From Hahella sp. CCB-MM4 (GTDB lineage: Bacteria > Pseudomonadota > Gammaproteobacteria > Pseudomonadales > Oleiphilaceae), in assembly GCF_002260525.1 (NCBI RefSeq), contig NZ_MRYI01000014.1:1-64000 (forward strand): a DNA stretch of 64,000 nucleotides. Direction: 5' to 3'. Shown here piece by piece: positions 43,836-50,254 of this stretch. Within the stretch, counting starts at the first letter, position 1. Each line of letters opens with the position of its first letter. The notes beneath the pieces were generated by a model. It worked only from the letters and a program-made list of their open reading frames with translations, had not been told where the DNA came from and did no database searches. A program made the translations under genes and the position numbers.

Positions 43836-44384
43836 TCAGGCGACGAAGTTCCGAAACCCTTTGGACAAATAATCCATCTGATCTGCCAGAATTGCGCGGT
43901 TGCGCAGATACATATACTCGTATCGGTTAGGAGTATAAGGTACTGACAGTAGTGCCATGCCAGCTTCTTCCGGAGTTTGGGCTGCCTTGCGCTGGTTGCA
44001 TGCCATGCAGCTGGCGCAGGTATTTGTCCAGGTATGATGCCCTCCGCGACTTGTCGGGATAATGTGGTCAATCGTGAGTATTCTCTCTGGAAAAATATCC
44101 CCGCAGTACATGCATGTATATCGGTCCCTGGCGAACAGATTGTGGCGGGTCAACGGGATGGACTGCGCGATACGTGCGTAGTCGCTCCTGCTGGCCAGAA
44201 TGGCAGGTATCACCAGAGAGGATTGGGATCCCTTTTTGTTGAAACCGCCTTTCAGGACAATATCTGTCTCGCCAAATGACCAGGAGACTCTTCCTGCTGT
44301 CAGGTGTTGGGCGGCCTGGTGCACTGTTAGCCAACTTTGAGGTTGGCCGCCTGAGGTAATTTTCAGAATTAGTGGGTACTTCAT
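43836..44384 (-). CDS. HNH endonuclease-family protein
   Basis: 182 residues. A Zn-binding HNH core: CMYCGD...LTIDHIIPTSRGGHHTWTNTCASCMACNQRKA (two C-x-x-C pairs, the D-H of the HNH and the N). The flanks match a conserved chromosomal gammaproteobacterial family with no known role. It lies 91 bp downstream of, and parallel to, the tRNA array, with no terminator seen between. Confidence 0.85.
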   Translation of the reverse strand: MKYPLILKITSGGQPQSWLTVHQAAQHLTAGRVSWSFGETDIVLKGGFNKKGSQSSLVIPAILASRSDYARIAQSIPLTRHNLFARDRYTCMYCGDIFPERILTIDHIIPTSRGGHHTWTNTCASCMACNQRKAAQTPEEAGMALLSVPYTPNRYEYMYLRNRAILADQMDYLSKGFRNFVA

Positions 44385-44475
44385 GACAATAACAGCGTCT
44401 TTGAGCGGCTGGCTCCTTTTGTTAAAGCTTGGTTGTAAATGCTGTGCAGTTGCTAAATATATGGTTAAAAGTATT

Positions 44476-44550
44476 TGGGGTGATCGACGAGAATCGAACT
44501 CGTATCACCTGGGCCACAACCAGGCGCTCTGCCATTGAGCTACGATCACC
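44476..44550 (-). tRNA. tRNA-His(GUG)
   Basis: Full cloverleaf with an encoded extra 5' G opposite discriminator C73, as expected for His. Anticodon GTG in the loop TTGTGGC; D-loop with GG; normal T-loop TTCGATT; CCA encoded. Variable loop of 4 nt. Last tRNA of the array in transcription order. Confidence 0.95.
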
Positions 44551-44560
44551 ATAATGCAAA

Positions 44561-44636
44561 TGGCTGGCCGCCCCGGATTTGAACCGGGAACCCTCTGAGT
44601 CAAAGTCAGATGCGCTGCCCATTGCGCCAGCGGCCA
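44561..44636 (-). tRNA. tRNA-Gln(UUG)
   Basis: Anticodon TTG in loop CTTTGAC; acceptor begins with the U1-A72 pair and G73 typical of Gln; T-loop TTCAAAT; encoded CCA. Spaced 10 bp from tRNA-His. The body differs strongly from the usual gammaproteobacterial tRNA-Gln. Confidence 0.85.
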
Positions 44637-44659
44637 AATGATCCTTTGGATCTGTTAAT

Positions 44660-44736
44660 TGGTGCGCAAGAGGGGAGTCGAACCCCTAAAACCTGGTTTC
44701 TAAGACCAGTACGTATGCCAGTTCCGTCACTTGCGC
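44660..44736 (-). tRNA. tRNA-Leu(UAG)-like, without the long variable arm
   Basis: Anticodon TAG in loop CTTAGAA, a Leu-style D arm (ACG, 11-nt loop, CGT), good acceptor GCGCAAG / CTTGCGC, A73 and CCA. The variable region is only 5 nt (GTTTT), whereas bacterial tRNA-Leu has a long class II arm. Either an unusual tRNA or a degenerate copy. Confidence 0.75.
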
Positions 44737-44748
44737 TCATGTTTAAAT

Positions 44749-44824
44749 TGGTACCCGTGGATGGAGTCAAACCATCGACCTCAGGTTTCGTAGACCTGCG
44801 CTCTGTTCTCTGAGCTACACGGGT
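44749..44824 (-). tRNA. tRNA-Arg(ACG)-like with non-canonical D and T loops
   Basis: Acceptor ACCCGTG / CACGGGT, anticodon ACG in CTACGAA, A73 and CCA. The D-loop AGAGAACA has no GG pair, and the T-loop is TTTGACT with T at position 56, so the G18/G19-T-loop contact that holds the elbow is lost. Confidence 0.75.
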
Positions 44825-44849
44825 ATATCATTTGCCATCTTTCAAAAGA

Positions 44850-44925
44850 TGGAGAGGGTTGCCAGATTCGAACTGACAGAAACAAGAGTTGCAGTCTTGC
44901 GCCTTCACCTTTCGGCCAAACCCTC
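44850..44925 (-). tRNA. tRNA-Cys(GCA)
   Basis: Anticodon GCA in CTGCAAC; acceptor GAGGGTT / AACCCTC; U73 discriminator typical of Cys; normal T-loop; CCA encoded. Confidence 0.93.
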
Positions 44926-44931
44926 AATATC

Positions 44932-45007
44932 TGGCTTCGGAAACAGGGCTCGAATCTGTGACCTGGCGGTTAACAGCCGCCCGCTCTACCCACTGAGCTA
45001 TTCCGGA
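44932..45007 (-). tRNA. tRNA-Asn(GUU) with stem mismatches
   Basis: Anticodon GTT in CTGTTAA, G73 and CCA. The acceptor TCCGGAA / TTCCGAA has a C2-A71 mismatch, and the T stem ACAGA / CCTGT ends in an A53-C61 mismatch where G-C is nearly invariant. Confidence 0.8.
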
Positions 45008-45013
45008 ACATTC

Positions 45014-45089
45014 TGGTGGGTCGAGAGGGATTTGAACCCTCAACCTCGGGCTTAAAAGGCCCTTGCTCTGCCAATTGAGCTATCAACCC
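45014..45089 (-). tRNA. tRNA-Lys(UUU)
   Basis: Anticodon TTT in CTTTTAA; acceptor GGGTTGA / TCGACCC; A73; CCA. The anticodon stem has an A27-G43 mismatch at its top. Otherwise canonical. Confidence 0.92.
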
Positions 45090-45095
45090 AAAATC

Positions 45096-45172
45096 TGGTG
45101 GTCCCGGCGGGATTCGAACCTGCATCTGCCGGCTTATGAGGCCGGTGCTTTAACCTGTTAAGCGACAGGACC
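45096..45172 (-). tRNA. tRNA-Met(CAU), probably elongator
   Basis: Anticodon CAT in CTCATAA; acceptor GGTCCTG / CGGGACC; CCA. The A51-C63 mismatch in the T stem also occurs in E. coli elongator tRNA-Met, which favours Met over tRNA-Ile2 (lysidine). Not an initiator, since the first pair is G-C. Confidence 0.88.
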
Positions 45173-45231
45173 ACAATTCGTTTCACTTGCTCATCGATGT
45201 GCTAAATATCGATGTGTTAATACACTGATAA

Positions 45232-45318
45232 TGGCGGTAGGTGTTGGATTCGAACCAACGCGCCTCTTTCAAGACGTCGGATTAGCAATCCGATGCATTA
45301 CCACTCTGCCAACCTACC
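45232..45318 (-). tRNA. tRNA-Ser(GCU)
   Basis: Class II tRNA with anticodon GCT in TTGCTAA, a paired long variable arm, acceptor GGTAGGT / ACCTACC, G73 and CCA. Canonical. Confidence 0.95.
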
Positions 45319-45334
45319 GAATACACGATTCATC

Positions 45335-45417
45335 TGGTGGATGGGGGCGGATTCGAACCGCCGCAGTTTTTGGCTACAGATTTACAGTCTGCTTGTCTCT
45401 CCATCGACAGCCCATCC
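45335..45417 (-). tRNA. tRNA-Tyr(GUA), weakened variable arm
   Basis: Anticodon GTA in CTGTAAA; acceptor GGATGGG / CCCATCC; A73; CCA. Position 8 is C instead of the near-invariant U, and the 13-nt variable arm forms only about two pairs. First tRNA of the array. Confidence 0.87.
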
Positions 45418-45484
45418 GATATTTCATTGTTAAGTCAGATTTGTGTCCGGATCCGGGACGTTCTTATCACGGTTGTCCGGGCAC

Positions 45485-45822
45485 AAAAAAACCTGGTGTC
45501 TCAATAAGCCCACCAGGTTTCCGGGTATTAACAGATATCCTGGAGGGCGCATGTGACCCTCCAGACGTCTAGTCAGAAGGGATCAGTCAAGTTGCTTTGC
45601 TGTATGTCATGCTTAGCATGGAGATTCAGTCGACACATTTCAGCGGCGCTATTACTGAGCGCACGTATACTATTGGCACAAAGGCGATAGTTGCCTTTGC
45701 CGGTTGGCCAATAGATTGTGAAAAGTTCATGTCTCATGCTGAATTCCAAAGTTCTTAAAAACAGTTAGCTGCTAATGATGTTAGGCAGCTTGTTTGTATT
45801 CGTGCTTACATCTGCAATTTTT
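45485..45822 (-). ncRNA. Candidate structured RNA between rtcR and the tRNA array
   Basis: Noncoding and rich in perfect hairpins. At 45541-45563: TGGAGGG/CCCTCCA. At 45608-45620: CATGC/GCATG, 3-nt loop. At 45646-45662: GCGCT/AGCGC, 7-nt loop. At 45670-45714: outer 8-bp stem CTATTGGC/GCCAATAG enclosing a 7-bp stem CAAAGGC/GCCTTTG with a 7-nt loop. It ends in the terminator at 45489-45520. A minus-strand transcript of about 335 nt from the candidate promoter at 45831-45848 is inferred. Confidence 0.5.
45489..45520 (-). terminator. Strong intrinsic terminator upstream of the tRNA array
   Basis: On the minus strand a 10-bp stem AAACCTGGTG / CACCAGGTTT with a 12-nt loop is followed by seven T (to 45485). 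It lies about 68 bp before tRNA-Tyr, so it ends a transcript coming from the rtcR side or acts as an attenuator of the array. Confidence 0.9.
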
Positions 45823-45830
45823 ATATGTAT

Positions 45831-45848
45831 TAACACTTTCCGTGCCAA
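45831..45848 (-). promoter_or_regulatory. Candidate sigma54 promoter facing the tRNA array
   Basis: On the minus strand TTGGCACG-N4-GTGTT. The -24 half is a perfect TGGCACG. The -12 half keeps the spacing (GG-N10-GT) but has GT in place of GC. It lies divergent to rtcR, a sigma54 activator gene. Chance occurrence of the -24 half alone is not negligible. Confidence 0.4.
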
Positions 45849-46048
45849 CTTTTGAAAAGTCCCAAAATTGTGAGAATTGAGGAGAAAATTTCTATTCAAG
45901 TGAACAATAAAGGTATCTATTTAAATAGTGTTTATATCAAAACTATAAATTTTGATATTCTGTTGTGCTTTGAATGACACTGATGAAATAACAACCGTGA
46001 TTCATGGAACAAATTTGGATAATTGTTTATCTGTAGGTGTAAAGAGCG

Positions 46049-47677
46049 ATGACATCCTCAAAGGTTATATATTCCATTGTCGGGCAGAGATTGGATAAAG
46101 CGTCAAAGCGTCGGGGAGCATATGAAAAAAGATTTGAACGCCGATGGCGGCCGACGGTGTCTTTGGCCCTGATGGATAATGTCTCTGAAGTACATTTGCT
46201 CTATGACAACGAGAGGGCGTTGGCAGAGGAAGTGAAGGAGGATATCCAGAAACTAAATAGTGACGTTTGCGTCAGTCTTCATCAGGTCGGATTTGCTGAT
46301 CCATGGGAGCTGGCTGAGGTGCATCTCACTTTGGTTGATTTTGTTGAGAAGGAGGTGGTCAACTTTAAGCCTGACCACGAGTATCTTTTTCATATTACAA
46401 CCGGAACCCATATTCAGCAGATCTGTATCTATAAATTAGTGGAAGGGCATTATTTTCCTGGAAAAATCCTTCAAACCGCACCAGGAGAAAAAGGCGGGGA
46501 AGCCAGGTTTCAGGTGATTGATCTGGATCTTTCCAAATATGATGCGGTTGCAGAACGTGTGCGTCGGCAAAAAGAGGCTGAAGAGAATGATCTTAAAAGA
46601 GGCATTCCAACACTGAATCTGAAATTCAATCAAATGATCGAGGAGCTGGAAATTATCAGTCGGCGTAGTCCCTATCCAATATTGTTGATGGGCCCCACCG
46701 GTGCGGGTAAATCAGACCTTGCCCGGCGAATTTATGCGTTAAAGCATAAATCATCTCAAATTAGCGGCGATTATGTAGAGATCAACTGTGCCACTCTGAT
46801 GGGGGACAATGCTATGTCGGCGTTGTTTGGCCATAAAAAAGGGGCGTTTACCGGCGCGTCTGAAAACAGAGAGGGCCTGCTGCAGCGCGCGAATAACGGA
46901 TTGCTATTTTTGGATGAAATCGGTGAGTTGGGGCTTGAGGAGCAGGCCATGTTGTTGTCTGCCATAGAAAACCAGTCATTTTATCCGTTGGGAAGTGACC
47001 GTCTGCAGGAAAGCAGGTTTCAACTGATTGCCGGAACTAATCGCGATCTACGTGAATCCTGCCGGCAAGGAACCTTTAGAGAAGATCTGCTGGCGCGGAT
47101 AAATTTGTGGACCTTTACTTTGCCGGGGTTAAAAGAGCGCCTCGAAGACCTGGAGCCTAATCTGGATTACGAGCTTGATCAGGTCAGTCGAGCCCTTGAT
47201 CAGCGTTTTCGTATGGCCTCGGATGCCCGCAGGCGCTTTGTGGAATTTTCTTCGCATCAGGATGCTATATGGAGCGGAAACTTCCGTGATCTGATTGCCA
47301 GTGTCCGAAGAATGACGACGTTGTCCGATGGCGGCATTATTCGAACGGATGATGTTGAAAGAGAGATCAGTCGACTTAAAGCTATTTGGTTCGGCGACAA
47401 TACTACTGGGGAATGTGTTGGGGATAAGTCGGCTCTGGATTGTATTGACCAGACCACGCTTAGCAATATCGATGCGATTGACCTTCATGCGTTGACTCTG
47501 GCGGTTGATACAATCAAACAATCGTCTTCCTATGCCGAAGCGGGTCGTAAGCTCTTTGATCGTTCCCGTCTACGCCGCAAACAGACCAATGATACTCATC
47601 GGATCAAATCCTGGTTGCAGAGGTTTGATATTGAATTGAAGGACATACCATTACGAGCGAAGAAATATCTGGTTTAG
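46049..47677 (+). CDS. rtcR: RtcR-type transcriptional regulator: CARF domain plus sigma54 AAA+ activator
   Basis: 542 residues, close to E. coli RtcR. Residues 1-180 are the CARF-like sensory domain (IYSIVGQRLDKASKRRG, then FHITTGTHIQQICIYKLVE). The AAA+ domain has Walker A GPTGAGKS (215-222), the sigma54-contacting GAFTGA (265-270) and Walker B LLFLDE (285-290). A C-terminal HTH region ends the protein. RtcR activates rtcBA, the RNA ligase and cyclase, in response to 2',3'-cyclic phosphate RNA ends. No rtcB or rtcA follows here; the divergent neighbours are tRNA genes. The start at 46049 has weak GAGCG spacing but fits the family. Confidence 0.93.
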   Translation: MTSSKVIYSIVGQRLDKASKRRGAYEKRFERRWRPTVSLALMDNVSEVHLLYDNERALAEEVKEDIQKLNSDVCVSLHQVGFADPWELAEVHLTLVDFVEKEVVNFKPDHEYLFHITTGTHIQQICIYKLVEGHYFPGKILQTAPGEKGGEARFQVIDLDLSKYDAVAERVRRQKEAEENDLKRGIPTLNLKFNQMIEELEIISRRSPYPILLMGPTGAGKSDLARRIYALKHKSSQISGDYVEINCATLMGDNAMSALFGHKKGAFTGASENREGLLQRANNGLLFLDEIGELGLEEQAMLLSAIENQSFYPLGSDRLQESRFQLIAGTNRDLRESCRQGTFREDLLARINLWTFTLPGLKERLEDLEPNLDYELDQVSRALDQRFRMASDARRRFVEFSSHQDAIWSGNFRDLIASVRRMTTLSDGGIIRTDDVEREISRLKAIWFGDNTTGECVGDKSALDCIDQTTLSNIDAIDLHALTLAVDTIKQSSSYAEAGRKLFDRSRLRRKQTNDTHRIKSWLQRFDIELKDIPLRAKKYLV

Positions 47678-47706
47678 TGCAGGTGTGCAAAGCGTTAGGG
47701 TCCAAT

Positions 47707-47982
47707 ATGAACATAAAAGAACTAATACTAGAAATTAGGGGGCGAGTGGTGTCTCTTTCAAAAATAGACACTAAAGAGTCCGTGAAAGGGAAACTTGGAG
47801 ATCCTGATGATGTGGGGGGCTTCTTTGGAAAAAGGAAAACCCCGTTAATATATAAGTACGATGAAATTGAATTTCATTTTGATACAGACAGTAGCCTGTT
47901 CATGATATTTCAAGATCAGAAATTGGAAGGGCAGGAAGGTGGAATTGTCACGTTATGCCTGGATTTTAGAAAGACATACTAG
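47707..47982 (+). CDS. Small hypothetical protein
   Basis: ATG at 47707 with AGGG upstream gives 91 residues. An in-frame GTG at 47677 overlaps the rtcR stop (TAGTG) and would add 10 residues. The sequence SVKGKLGDPDDVGGFFGKRKTPLIYKYDEIEFHFDTDSSLFMIFQDQ resembles small proteins often seen near toxin/immunity genes, but no family is named with confidence. Confidence 0.6.
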   Translation: MNIKELILEIRGRVVSLSKIDTKESVKGKLGDPDDVGGFFGKRKTPLIYKYDEIEFHFDTDSSLFMIFQDQKLEGQEGGIVTLCLDFRKTY

Positions 47983-48024
47983 CGAGTGAATTTCACAAGC
48001 CAAAATACTTGGACTTGGTAAAGC

Positions 48025-48040
48025 TGGCACAGTATGTCCT
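48025..48040 (+). promoter_or_regulatory. Possible second sigma54-type site
   Basis: TGGCACA-N4-GTCCT, about 65 bp upstream of the lipoprotein gene. The -24 half is perfect and the -12 half poor (CC in place of GC). Listed because it shares the divergence pattern of the site at 45831-45848. Confidence 0.25.
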
Positions 48041-48102
48041 CGGGGCAAGCTCTAAATTTCCCGCATTGAAGGGTTTGTCATTAAAAAAGGAAGCAATAGG
48101 TA

Positions 48103-48630
48103 ATGGACAATACCAATACATTGAGGATGGTTCCCCTACTCTCAAGTAAAAATAGTTCTCTTTCGGCAGTCATCGTTTTGTCTGCGACACTGATGGTTTC
48201 CAGTTGTTCGACGGTAAGTGAGGAGCAGCTGGAAAAAGACAGATACACCGGTGCTGCTGAGGCAATGGCGTTGTTGATTGAGGCATATAGGGCGAAGAAT
48301 ATAGAAGCGGCCGTTGCGGTGAAAGGGTTCAAGGAGGAGGCAAAGCTAATGCTAAGAGACCTGGGAGACTCATTTGATCAGGACCCTGGGTTGGTTATTC
48401 AAGCGGCGGAAGTGCTGGAACTAACCTATCGGCATGAAATTAGAGAATACGGATTTCCAGATTTCAGCGAGGCGAGCTGCGAGTTGGGGTTATTGAGGCA
48501 TCATCAAGATAATATCTTTATTGCGACTGAGGATTGTGAATCTGAAAGTGGGTTTGTAAGCTATTTCAATACCTACGTCGCTGAAACAGAGGATGGATGG
48601 AAAGTCCTGACTAGAGCGCCTAAGAAATAA
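48103..48630 (+). CDS. Lipoprotein, unknown function
   Basis: 175 residues. A rather long n-region, then AVIVLSATLMVSSC with a lipobox Cys at about residue 35. The mature helical part (AAEAMALLIEAYRAKNIEAAVAVKGFKEEAKLML) looks like a stress- or growth-related periplasmic domain of unknown family. 14 bp before the DUF4139 gene, so probably one operon. Confidence 0.65.
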   Translation: MDNTNTLRMVPLLSSKNSSLSAVIVLSATLMVSSCSTVSEEQLEKDRYTGAAEAMALLIEAYRAKNIEAAVAVKGFKEEAKLMLRDLGDSFDQDPGLVIQAAEVLELTYRHEIREYGFPDFSEASCELGLLRHHQDNIFIATEDCESESGFVSYFNTYVAETEDGWKVLTRAPKK

Positions 48631-48643
48631 AAGGACGACTGCT

Positions 48644-50254
48644 ATGCATGCCCATGTAGAACCAGAAAACATTCTAGAATCCGGTGCTGATAACACCATA
48701 GATAGTGTGCTCGTATTTGCAGACCAGGCACAGGTCAAACGTTCAGTCTCGACCCAACTGAAGCAAGGCATGAATGTTATCTCGGTGGAGGTAACGGCGT
48801 TTAAGGTATTTGGCGATACTGTGCAAGCAGAGGTGTATGCCAATGGCAATATTGTGGGTGTGCAGTATAAGGAAGTTCCGCAGAAGCAGTTCCGACAGCA
48901 AGAGCTGATGCAGCTGGAAGCGGACAAGAAGCAATTGCAACGAGAGCGTCAATTGCTCGACCAGAAGAAGGAGAACGAGCTCAAGCGCCGGGAATTTCTT
49001 GATTCGATCTCGAAATTTTCAAAAGTCCAAGTGCCGCAAGAAATTCAAACGTCACTGGTTTCGGTAGAGAAGATGCGCGAAATCATGGGATTTATTTCCG
49101 AAGGTTATGAGGACGTCACTCAAAGCGTTACAGAGCTTGAAGCCGGGATTGAAGCGCGCGATGAATCCATAAGTGTGATTGACCAGAAGCTAAAGGATAA
49201 AGCCCGTTCTGACAAAAAAAGCCTGAAGCTGATCGAAGTGATATTTGAGAGCAACGAAGAGCAAACAGCCAAGCTCGATATCTATTACAACGTGGGGTTG
49301 GCCAGCTGGCAACCTATATATAAGCTCGATGTAGATCGTCATTCTGATGAAATTACTCTGCAACAATTTGCCAAAATAGCCCAGCGCACCGGTGAGGATT
49401 GGCCCAATACCAAAATCAGTATCTCCAATGCTGTGGCTATCCAGAGCGCTCGTCTGCCAAATTTGAATAGCTGGTTACTGGATATCTACCGTGCACCGCC
49501 TATGCCCGTCGCTAGTCCCGTTGCTCACGAAGTTATGCTTGGCGCTGCGGCTGCTGGAGAAATGCTGGAAGATCTGGAAGAGCCCGCTCCTGCGGCCTTC
49601 ATGCAGGCTGAACAAAGGGAGCAGGGGATCTCCTTTGAGTTTGATTTACCGCAGCGGGTTCAGATTAACTCGGGCGGCGACGATGCAACCTTGCCCATTA
49701 TGCAGAAAAAGCTCCCCTGTAAGTTCTATCACTACTCCGTCCCAAAAATTGATTCGCACACCTATTTCGTCTGTGCCGTGCAACCGGATAGCAACCTGCT
49801 CCCTGGCTCTGTGAATGTTTACTACGGTGGGCGTTATATCGCGAATACACTGCTTCAGGACAAAGCGGCAGGAGAGCCGATGGTCTTTAACCTGGGGGCT
49901 GATCGAGGTGTGAAGGTTTCAAGGCAAAAGGTCAGCGATAAAAAAGCAGAGACCTTTTTCGGGATGGTGGATCGGTCCAGTGTGGCGAGAGAGATAGAGT
50001 TTCTCACCAGGATTGAGAACCTTAAGGATGAATCGATTACGGTTAAATACATTGACCATATTCCAGTAGCCAAAACAGATGTTATTCAGGTCAAAGGTGT
50101 GGAGTTAAACCCCGAACCGACAGAAAAAGAATATCAGTCCAAGGAAGGCGTGCTGGGTTGGGATATCGAACTTGGCCCAGGCGTAACGAAAGAGATCCGG
50201 CTGAAGTTCTACATTAAGCATCCCAAAAATGAAGCGCCTGTCGGGCTTTCATAG
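48644..50254 (+). CDS. DUF4139 (MuiA-like) protein
   Basis: 536 residues: an N-terminal DUF4140-type strand set (DSVLVFADQAQVKRSV...GMNVISVEV), a coiled coil about residues 85-120 and 150-195, a DUF4139 beta domain (YYNVGLASWQPIYKLDV, AKIAQRTGEDWPNTKISISNA) and a C-terminal LTRIENLKDESITVKYIDHIPVA. Function unknown; similar proteins are named mucoidy inhibitor A. No signal peptide. Confidence 0.8.
   Translation: MHAHVEPENILESGADNTIDSVLVFADQAQVKRSVSTQLKQGMNVISVEVTAFKVFGDTVQAEVYANGNIVGVQYKEVPQKQFRQQELMQLEADKKQLQRERQLLDQKKENELKRREFLDSISKFSKVQVPQEIQTSLVSVEKMREIMGFISEGYEDVTQSVTELEAGIEARDESISVIDQKLKDKARSDKKSLKLIEVIFESNEEQTAKLDIYYNVGLASWQPIYKLDVDRHSDEITLQQFAKIAQRTGEDWPNTKISISNAVAIQSARLPNLNSWLLDIYRAPPMPVASPVAHEVMLGAAAAGEMLEDLEEPAPAAFMQAEQREQGISFEFDLPQRVQINSGGDDATLPIMQKKLPCKFYHYSVPKIDSHTYFVCAVQPDSNLLPGSVNVYYGGRYIANTLLQDKAAGEPMVFNLGADRGVKVSRQKVSDKKAETFFGMVDRSSVAREIEFLTRIENLKDESITVKYIDHIPVAKTDVIQVKGVELNPEPTEKEYQSKEGVLGWDIELGPGVTKEIRLKFYIKHPKNEAPVGLS

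Follow-up and report, generated by a model that had tools for sequence, protein, structure and literature searches.

Why would a regulator of RNA repair be encoded back to back with an array of ten tRNA genes, and what could it control there? The locus lies in the window, by which we mean the whole analysed stretch of 64,000 nucleotides, positions 1 to 64,000 of contig NZ_MRYI01000014.1 of Hahella sp. CCB-MM4. The reading that we favour, and hold to be rather probable, is that the array is a conditional replacement-tRNA operon opened by two serial tests, the first made by the divergent RtcR (RtcR2) with sigma54 and the second by an attenuator in the leader of the transcript. We infer the transcription start, the switching and the function of the array from the sequence.

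The tRNA array and its divergent rtcR

The original prediction described ten different tRNAs, none duplicated, on the strand opposite a complete rtcR gene, and both observations hold. By ARAGORN there are ten tRNA genes at 44476-45417 on the minus strand, each with a different anticodon, and Rfam recovers all of them at 42-71 bits, against a gathering score of 29. They would be transcribed in the order Tyr, Ser-GCT, CAT, Lys, Asn, Cys, Arg-ACG, Leu-TAG, Gln, His, and CCA is encoded in 10/10 of the genes. For each of the ten there is at least one housekeeping isoacceptor elsewhere in the genome, with identities of 49/77 to 59/76 (64-78%); 58 tRNA matches were found in the genome among the 150 of 273 candidates that were scored. 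The anticodon loops are the same as the housekeeping ones in six of the ten and differ in His, Gln, Leu and Ser. TilS recognises the acceptor pairs C4-G69/C5-G68. Since the CAT tRNA of the array carries these pairs, as does the genome's CAT gene that we take to be Ile2, and differs in them from the presumed elongator Met gene, it is probably a tRNA-Ile2 reading AUA. Besides the tRNAs that the prediction named as nuclease targets, the array holds Cys, Ser, Leu, Gln and probably Ile2. The codons read by the ten begin with U, C or A, never G, which is not so in the four megaplasmid arrays described below, and tRNA-Leu(TAG) does not have the long variable arm that leucine tRNAs usually carry, in the window and in Hahella ganghwensis alike.

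The array DNA was sought in 121 family genomes, 117 of which give some match; among the matches listed, only those in the window's own genome and in G296, a genus member with the same array as H. ganghwensis DSM 17046 (locus L065), extend beyond one or two tRNAs. In H. ganghwensis the order of nine of the tRNAs is unchanged; the rtcR divergent from them is 86% identical to that of the window, and the gene order thiG, TetR, PepSY, HNH, array, rtcR2, ADP-ribosylglycohydrolase is kept. The tRNA-His is broken there, its 5′ part lost beside an insertion. The linkage of the neighbours, on which the prediction depended, is thus retained in 2/2 genus members having the array; the other five of the seven searched are without it. 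This absence, together with the duplication of every isoacceptor in the genome, led us to reject a housekeeping tRNA operon.

Over the nine tRNAs compared between the two species, 673/704 positions are identical. Their 194 predicted pairs comprise 185 that are unchanged, 3 with double changes, 6 with single changes that preserve pairing and 0 that are broken, and the spacers between the tRNAs have diverged. Because the stem changes keep pairing, the array tRNAs look like working spares under selection. The prediction had also allowed for a decoy array, which becomes less likely with CCA encoded in all ten genes and cloverleaf pairing kept in the nine compared. Identity as Y RNA (Yrl) was rejected too, the genes being ten complete tRNAs with encoded CCA and not tRNA-like domains.

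RtcR2 is full-length, with CARF-like, AAA+ and helix-turn-helix (HTH) parts, and what we take to be the Walker A motif (GPTGAGKS) and the GAFTGA loop are intact. The gene scores 168 bits with PF06956 and 156 bits with Sigma54_activat (Pfam), and 653 bits with the RtcR model of PADLOC. It starts 632 bases from the array, on the opposite strand. That rtcR stands without rtcBA, as the prediction stated, is true of the locus: rtcB, rtcA, rsr and slipin are absent from the ten genes neighbouring the array that were scanned, and a whole-genome search found no RtcB on the window's contig. It is not true of the genome, in which the same search found two RtcB genes, both on contig C74. One of these is followed by rtcA, with a zinc-finger gene and a canonical rtcR near, and opposite the canonical rtcR are a tRNA-like RNA, a slipin (Band_7) gene and RlaP. 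The canonical RtcR scores 279 bits against 171 for the window's RtcR, and the two are 50% identical. Since the canonical rtcR sits with rtcBA on C74, the window's rtcR is a second copy. The genome has rpoN.

In the divergent region there is a sigma54-like promoter element, TTGGCACGGAAAGTGTT. The aligned place in H. ganghwensis reads CTGGCACGGTGCATGCA, scores 17.2, is the best site of that locus, keeps the -24 part and has a good -12 part; the element lies 201 bases from rtcR in the window and 204 in H. ganghwensis. Of the 25 RtcR loci L036-L060 of the order, 17 have their best sigma54-like site in divergent orientation to rtcR and at a distance of 145-270 bases from where the match starts. A sigma70-type site was not found in 44380-46060, where 2.8 would be expected. 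The predicted RtcR-controlled replacement array is therefore supported in part, in so far as the array is accessory, redundant, linked to rtcR and preceded by a sigma54-like element; the layer formed by a leader and a terminator had been missed.

The leader and its attenuator-like RNA

Between the sigma54-like element and the first tRNA lies an open reading frame (ORF) of 54 codons, here called the leader. With CAT counted as Ile2, 30/54 of its codons are read by the array, against a background of 33.8% of 17031 codons (binomial P = 8.5e-4); all ten tRNAs are represented, and 30 array codons are reached in only 19/14487 sliding windows. The leader of H. ganghwensis gives 29/54 with the ten-tRNA set (P = 0.0019). 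Each of the two leaders has two ATA codons, a codon with a share of 0.67% in 19 genes of the window.

The two leaders have 20/53 aligned codons identical, 7 with silent changes and 26 with non-silent ones. The differences number 11, 13 and 24 at the first, second and third codon positions, and both indels are of three bases. Because the differences favour third positions and the indels are of three bases, the ORF is probably translated, though weakly constrained as a protein. It matches no Pfam family up to E 1, and in PHROGs gives a single weak match (E 0.06), to a family without assigned function.

Three hairpins follow the leader stop codon. The second is an intrinsic terminator that ends 71-72 nucleotides before tRNA-Tyr, and between the ORF end and the first tRNA the predicted fold is more stable than in shuffled sequences (z -4.1 in the window, -5.7 in H. 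ganghwensis). Five segments can be recognised in this RNA (Table 1), and in the window the calculated duplex energies are -8.2 for A:B, -14.5 for B:C, -16.8 for C:T5 and -14.5 kcal/mol for T5:T3. For the comparison we included a third rtcR-linked array, L144, and the arrays of four Pseudomonas megaplasmids, FeN3W (L087), pBASL58 (L088), pMPPla107 (L203) and pPL1 (L204). From the last ten codons to T5, the z values against shuffles are -3.3, -3.4 and -2.8 in the window, H. ganghwensis and L144, with 0, 3 and 8 of 500 shuffles as low. Folded up to T5 with A free, the RNA is predicted to form A:B plus C:T5 in these three loci and in L088; for the full-length RNA with its stop codon occupied by a ribosome, B:C plus the terminator is predicted in 7/7 loci. 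When the sequence from the stop codon to T5 was shuffled 2000 times, the three pairings arose together, at 80% strength, with frequencies of 0.0035 (window), 0.0015 (H. ganghwensis) and 0.015 (L144), and of 0.0525, 0.021, 0.032 and 0 in L087, L088, L203 and L204. A mutually exclusive antiterminator and terminator are thus predicted in silico. A T-box riboswitch leader was rejected, the Rfam scan of the window at gathering scores giving the ten tRNAs only.

What would such an arrangement do? RtcR2 would bind tRNA halves with cyclic-phosphate ends and activate the sigma54 promoter in the divergent region, giving a transcript that would open with the leader ORF and the five-segment RNA (A, B, C, T5, T3). 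Since a leader ORF is joined to an attenuator-like terminator, a second, tRNA-specific test is implied. In the off state, ribosomes would reach the end of the ORF and cover A, B would pair with C, and the terminator would form before the first tRNA. In the on state, ribosomes would stall where an array tRNA was depleted, A would pair with B, C would hold T5, and the polymerase would enter the array. Once the ten tRNAs had restored translation, the leader would be read through and synthesis would stop. Because there are five segments, read-through would follow a stall at any point of the ORF, which would suit a sensor of ten tRNAs.

PMC7790460 reports that Salmonella RtcR binds 5′ tRNA halves with a cyclic phosphate, that its operon is induced as tRNA fragments accumulate, and that Tyr, Cys and Leu-UAG are among the tRNAs cleaved there in the anticodon loop. 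According to PMC12409363, the combination of three phage T5 tRNAs rescues the growth of E. coli under the active, tRNA-cutting PARIS defence; spare tRNAs would therefore be useful.

Table 1. Features of the array, its leader and the divergent region in the window
Feature	Positions	Strand	Basis or remark
HNH endonuclease gene, next gene after the array, may be co-transcribed	43836..44384	-	Pfam; H. ganghwensis match
tRNA-His(GTG)	44476..44549	-	ARAGORN, Rfam
tRNA-Gln(TTG)	44561..44636	-	ARAGORN, Rfam
tRNA-Leu(TAG), 77 nucleotides, without long variable arm	44660..44736	-	ARAGORN, Rfam
tRNA-Arg(ACG)	44749..44824	-	ARAGORN, Rfam
tRNA-Cys(GCA)	44850..44925	-	ARAGORN, Rfam
tRNA-Asn(GTT)	44932..45007	-	ARAGORN, Rfam
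tRNA-Lys(TTT)	45014..45089	-	ARAGORN, Rfam
tRNA-Met(CAT), probably tRNA-Ile2	45096..45172	-	ARAGORN, Rfam, acceptor pairs
tRNA-Ser(GCT)	45232..45318	-	ARAGORN, Rfam
tRNA-Tyr(GTA)	45335..45417	-	ARAGORN, Rfam
Hairpin between terminator and first tRNA	45443..45484	-	Folding
Terminator 3′ arm T3 and U run (CACCAGGTTTTTTT)	45485..45498	-	Identical in H. ganghwensis
Terminator 5′ arm T5 (AAACCTGGTGGGC), predicted to pair with C or the 3′ arm	45508..45520	-	Folding
Segment C (GCCCTCCAGG), predicted to pair with B or T5 (antiterminator)	45539..45548	-	Folding, complementarity
Segment B (CTGGAGGG), predicted to pair with A or C	45557..45564	-	Folding, complementarity
Segment A, last codons of the leader ORF, predicted to pair with B	45576..45584	-	Folding, complementarity
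Leader ORF, 54 codons, of which 30 belong to the ten array tRNAs (CAT as Ile2)	45573..45737	-	Also 54 codons in H. ganghwensis
Sigma54-like promoter element, -24 part perfect, -12 part degenerate	45832..45848	-	Score 11.2
rtcR2, divergent RtcR (CARF-like domain, AAA+, HTH), 542 residues, second genome copy	46049..47677	+	Pfam, PADLOC

Recurrence of the layout and competing explanations

Is the arrangement peculiar to Hahella? We scanned 86 distinct RtcR loci for tRNAs, with flanks of at least 1.5 kb where contigs allowed, some being clipped by contig ends. Three of the 86 have a divergent array of at least four tRNAs: the window, H. ganghwensis and L144 (G151 contig 57), which belongs to another family of the order, so that rtcR does stand beside tRNA arrays in other genomes, where the prediction had proposed to look. 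Kept in H. ganghwensis and found again in another family, the arrangement is unlikely to be accidental. The rtcR of L144 is again a second copy. Its layout is TTGGCACGAGCCCTGCA, a 51-codon ORF, a hairpin, a terminator, and then Ser-GCT, Ile-GAT, Leu-TAG, Pro, Trp and Gln, and the -12 part of its sigma54-like element is good by eye. The array reads 29/50 codons of its own leader (P = 1.2e-7), or 29/51 with the start codon, a level that 0/2637 local windows attain. The L144 leader also scores high on the window's set (28/51), because Gln, Leu and Ser are common to both; the window's leader, on the L144 set, is at background level (15/54). The RtcRs of the array type (window, H. ganghwensis, L144) sit on long branches, with a support of 20 for a single origin. 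Neither of the two RtcR2 proteins brought up a relative when viral contigs were scanned with it. Inside the L144 array, around tRNA-Ile (L144:4767-5230), lies a GOLLD RNA (RF02032, 180.7 bits), an RNA that, according to PMC12286853, is otherwise one of phage tRNA islands and without known function.

Other RtcR loci have tRNA-like genes of a different sort. One to three of them, mostly with odd anticodons, are divergent from rtcR in L048, L049, L051, L054, L055, L121, L156, L164, L196 and L101. The last is the canonical rtcR locus of the window's genome, where the tRNA-like RNA (L101:3600-3672, that is C74:743599-743671) follows a sigma54-like element. In all six of these loci in which sigma54 sites were also sought, the genes are downstream of a divergent sigma54-like element. 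They are possibly Y-RNA-like. The tRNA-Met genes near rtcR in L138 and L145 were set aside, since by eye they are tRNA-like RNAs of canonical operons, placed between rtcB and slipin.

Among other plasmid arrays, the window's array DNA resembles those of the pMPPla107 family; for its Asn-Lys stretch the best match in 390 genomes is pBASL58, at 76% identity. The four megaplasmid arrays have leader ORFs of 25-28 codons and a terminator 8-33 nucleotides before the first tRNA, and the end of each ORF is complementary to the next segment. Codons of the own array make up 25/27 in L087 (P = 7.4e-7), 23/25 in L088 (P = 4e-5), 20/25 in L203 (P = 1.1e-3) and 21/24 in L204 (P = 2.3e-5). On the L144 array the same leaders are at background (4/24 to 7/27). 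The four leaders look homologous and are therefore counted as one origin. rtcR adjoins none of these arrays; that of pMPPla107 is beside a TROVE gene, about 20 kb off.

A rule-based survey was given 35 loci and yielded 23 clusters of at least four tRNAs, from which L205 was dropped for its short upstream sequence. Nine clusters are without a terminator in the last 140 nucleotides and 13 have one, 10/13 of these with an ORF in range (none was found at L209, L214 and L260). Six of the ORFs are enriched, in the window, L065, L144, L087, L203 and L204, with a P no lower than 0.046 for L065. For L088 a longer ORF in another frame (P = 0.51) was selected, and not the homologous leader (23/25). The Gram-positive arrays L210, L211 and L259 read 95-98% of codons, which makes the enrichment test uninformative. 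L206 has a cluster of three tRNAs without enrichment, L207, L208 and L258 have no cluster of at least three, and L215-L223 have none of at least four. When all upstream ORFs are searched, low P values arise by chance, for instance 2e-5 in L224, which is a housekeeping cluster and has no terminator. A search with the megaplasmid-leader pattern gave two unrelated viral contigs, with no tRNA in the stretches fetched. On a plasmid of Deinococcus sp. QL22 (L257:4750-5957), the ORF upstream of the array is rich in Thr, Asn, Arg and Gly, with 27/43 own codons (P = 7e-7), and ends 18 nucleotides before the first tRNA; a terminator was not found there, and this array perhaps uses another mechanism. The array of L205 (NZ_CP100662.1), a plasmid labelled Pseudomonas fluorescens, is Bacillus-like by eye, and the contig is possibly mislabelled.

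Several observations weigh against a doubly tested replacement operon. The array is present in only two of seven genus members. The -12 part of the window's element is poor, and the 64 kb hold 15 sites scoring at least 10, three of them above 11.2. The codon enrichment of the window's leader is modest: with CAT counted as Met it falls to 29/53 (P = 0.0036), and in H. ganghwensis, with the nine intact tRNAs and CAT as Met, to 23/53 (P = 0.046). On sibling arrays the megaplasmid leaders do just as well as on their own, and with the window's set they still exceed background (11/25 to 17/27), so that specificity is seen only in part, Tyr, Lys, Asn, Cys, Gln and His being common to them and the window. 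As to the RNA, single pairings are weak in shuffle tests (P 0.0005-0.23, against 0 to 0.0525 for the three criteria jointly), and the minimum-energy fold up to T5 in L087, L203 and L204 is without A:B plus C:T5, although the segments are complementary. If the stop codon is occupied while the RNA extends only to T5, C:T5 is still the minimum in the window and L144; the off state therefore requires that B:C form first, which its earlier transcription would allow.

The terminator that separates the ORF from the array, and the third-position bias and three-base indels of the ORF, would fit another layout, in which RtcR2 controls a gene for a small protein, namely the 54-codon ORF with its own terminator, and the array is an independent constitutive unit downstream. 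We think this unlikely. Only about 70 nucleotides, filled by a hairpin and with no sigma70-type site found, lie between the terminator and the first tRNA; the order of ORF, terminator and array recurs in L144 and the four megaplasmids, with a codon content that tracks the array; and the ORF belongs to no known protein family, the weak PHROGs match aside.

Control by RtcR alone is likewise improbable in our estimate. The array would then be damage-inducible but have no attenuator, and the hairpins would act in the processing or stability of the RNA. Such control would agree with the conserved sigma54-like element and with the tRNA-like RNAs that lie downstream of a divergent sigma54-like element in 6/26 other RtcR loci, but it leaves the terminator, the complementary segments and the codon enrichment unexplained, and the megaplasmid arrays share the leader layout without an adjacent rtcR. 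That the array is what is left of one from a phage or megaplasmid, now decaying and unused in this host, is very doubtful: the likeness to pBASL58, the broken tRNA-His of H. ganghwensis and the short variable arm of tRNA-Leu point that way, but substitutions in stems only preserve pairs while the spacers diverge, and the leader, the terminator and rtcR2 are all kept in H. ganghwensis.

Relation to known systems

If the array is a replacement operon under both RtcR2 and an attenuator, how does it differ from what is known? Its nearest functional relative is the trn operon of Anabaena PCC 7120, which PMC10272220 describes as 26 tRNAs on a megaplasmid, repressed by TrcR, normally silent, induced by translational stress and of benefit under it; TrcR also represses rtcB, and slipin and an HNH gene rise in the trcR mutant. 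Both are supplementary arrays beside a full housekeeping set. Unlike the trn operon, which has a ribbon-helix-helix repressor at its promoter, the Hahella array has the RtcR/sigma54 arrangement and a leader in its own codons. A Calothrix plasmid array (L212) showed neither terminator nor coupled leader; an ORF that is HNH-like by eye precedes it.

With the RNA repair operons under RtcR (rsr-yrlBA-rtcBA, PMC7790460; rtcBA, PMC9650030; and slipin-RlaP), the Hahella locus shares the regulator, the divergent sigma54-like element and the presumed signal of cleaved tRNA. It differs in that the presumed target is ten complete tRNA genes instead of repair enzymes, and in that RtcR2, a copy on a long branch, accompanies a canonical system encoded on another contig. 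The trp, his and leu operons are ribosome-mediated transcription attenuators. The short leader ORF, control codons, mutually exclusive hairpins and intrinsic terminator are common to amino-acid attenuators (PMC1183508) and to the Hahella leader as predicted; in contrast, the product of the proposed Hahella operon is tRNA itself, its control codons are for about ten tRNAs, and its five segments would let a stall anywhere give read-through. The pMPPla107-family arrays likewise have an own-codon leader ORF, complementary segments and a terminator just before the first tRNA, but their rtcR is not adjacent, and a sigma70-like promoter is seen by eye in L087 and L088.

In the open-licence literature, represented by the openings of abstracts, we found no description of a tRNA operon under leader-peptide attenuation or of RtcR controlling tRNA arrays. 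Each of the three elements, attenuation, RtcR and tRNA arrays, is known by itself; what appears to be new is their combination, and a leader made up of codons for the tRNAs of its own operon. It is tempting to propose a general class of self-sensing tRNA operons, on chromosomes and megaplasmids, behind own-codon leaders and released by tRNA loss, to which Hahella would add RtcR as a detector of broken tRNA halves, making an AND gate for tRNA cleavage; we give this wider proposal an even chance. If it is true, the redundant tRNA arrays of plasmids, phages and some chromosomes would be an inducible defence against tRNA loss, in which a loss caused, for example, by the anticodon nucleases of toxins or phage defence would free the replacement set. 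Attenuation would then sense about ten tRNAs at once, and the role of RtcR would extend from the repair of cleaved tRNA to its replacement. The leader peptide would show which tRNAs are guarded, and operons of this kind could be recognised in any genome by their leaders.

Two neighbouring features may be added. The product of the HNH gene is 82% identical to its counterpart at the same place in H. ganghwensis and has weak similarity to PtuB. Between rtcR2 and the ADP-ribosylglycohydrolase gene, at 47677-50254, the window has three ORFs, one of them DUF4139, which are absent from that place in H. ganghwensis.

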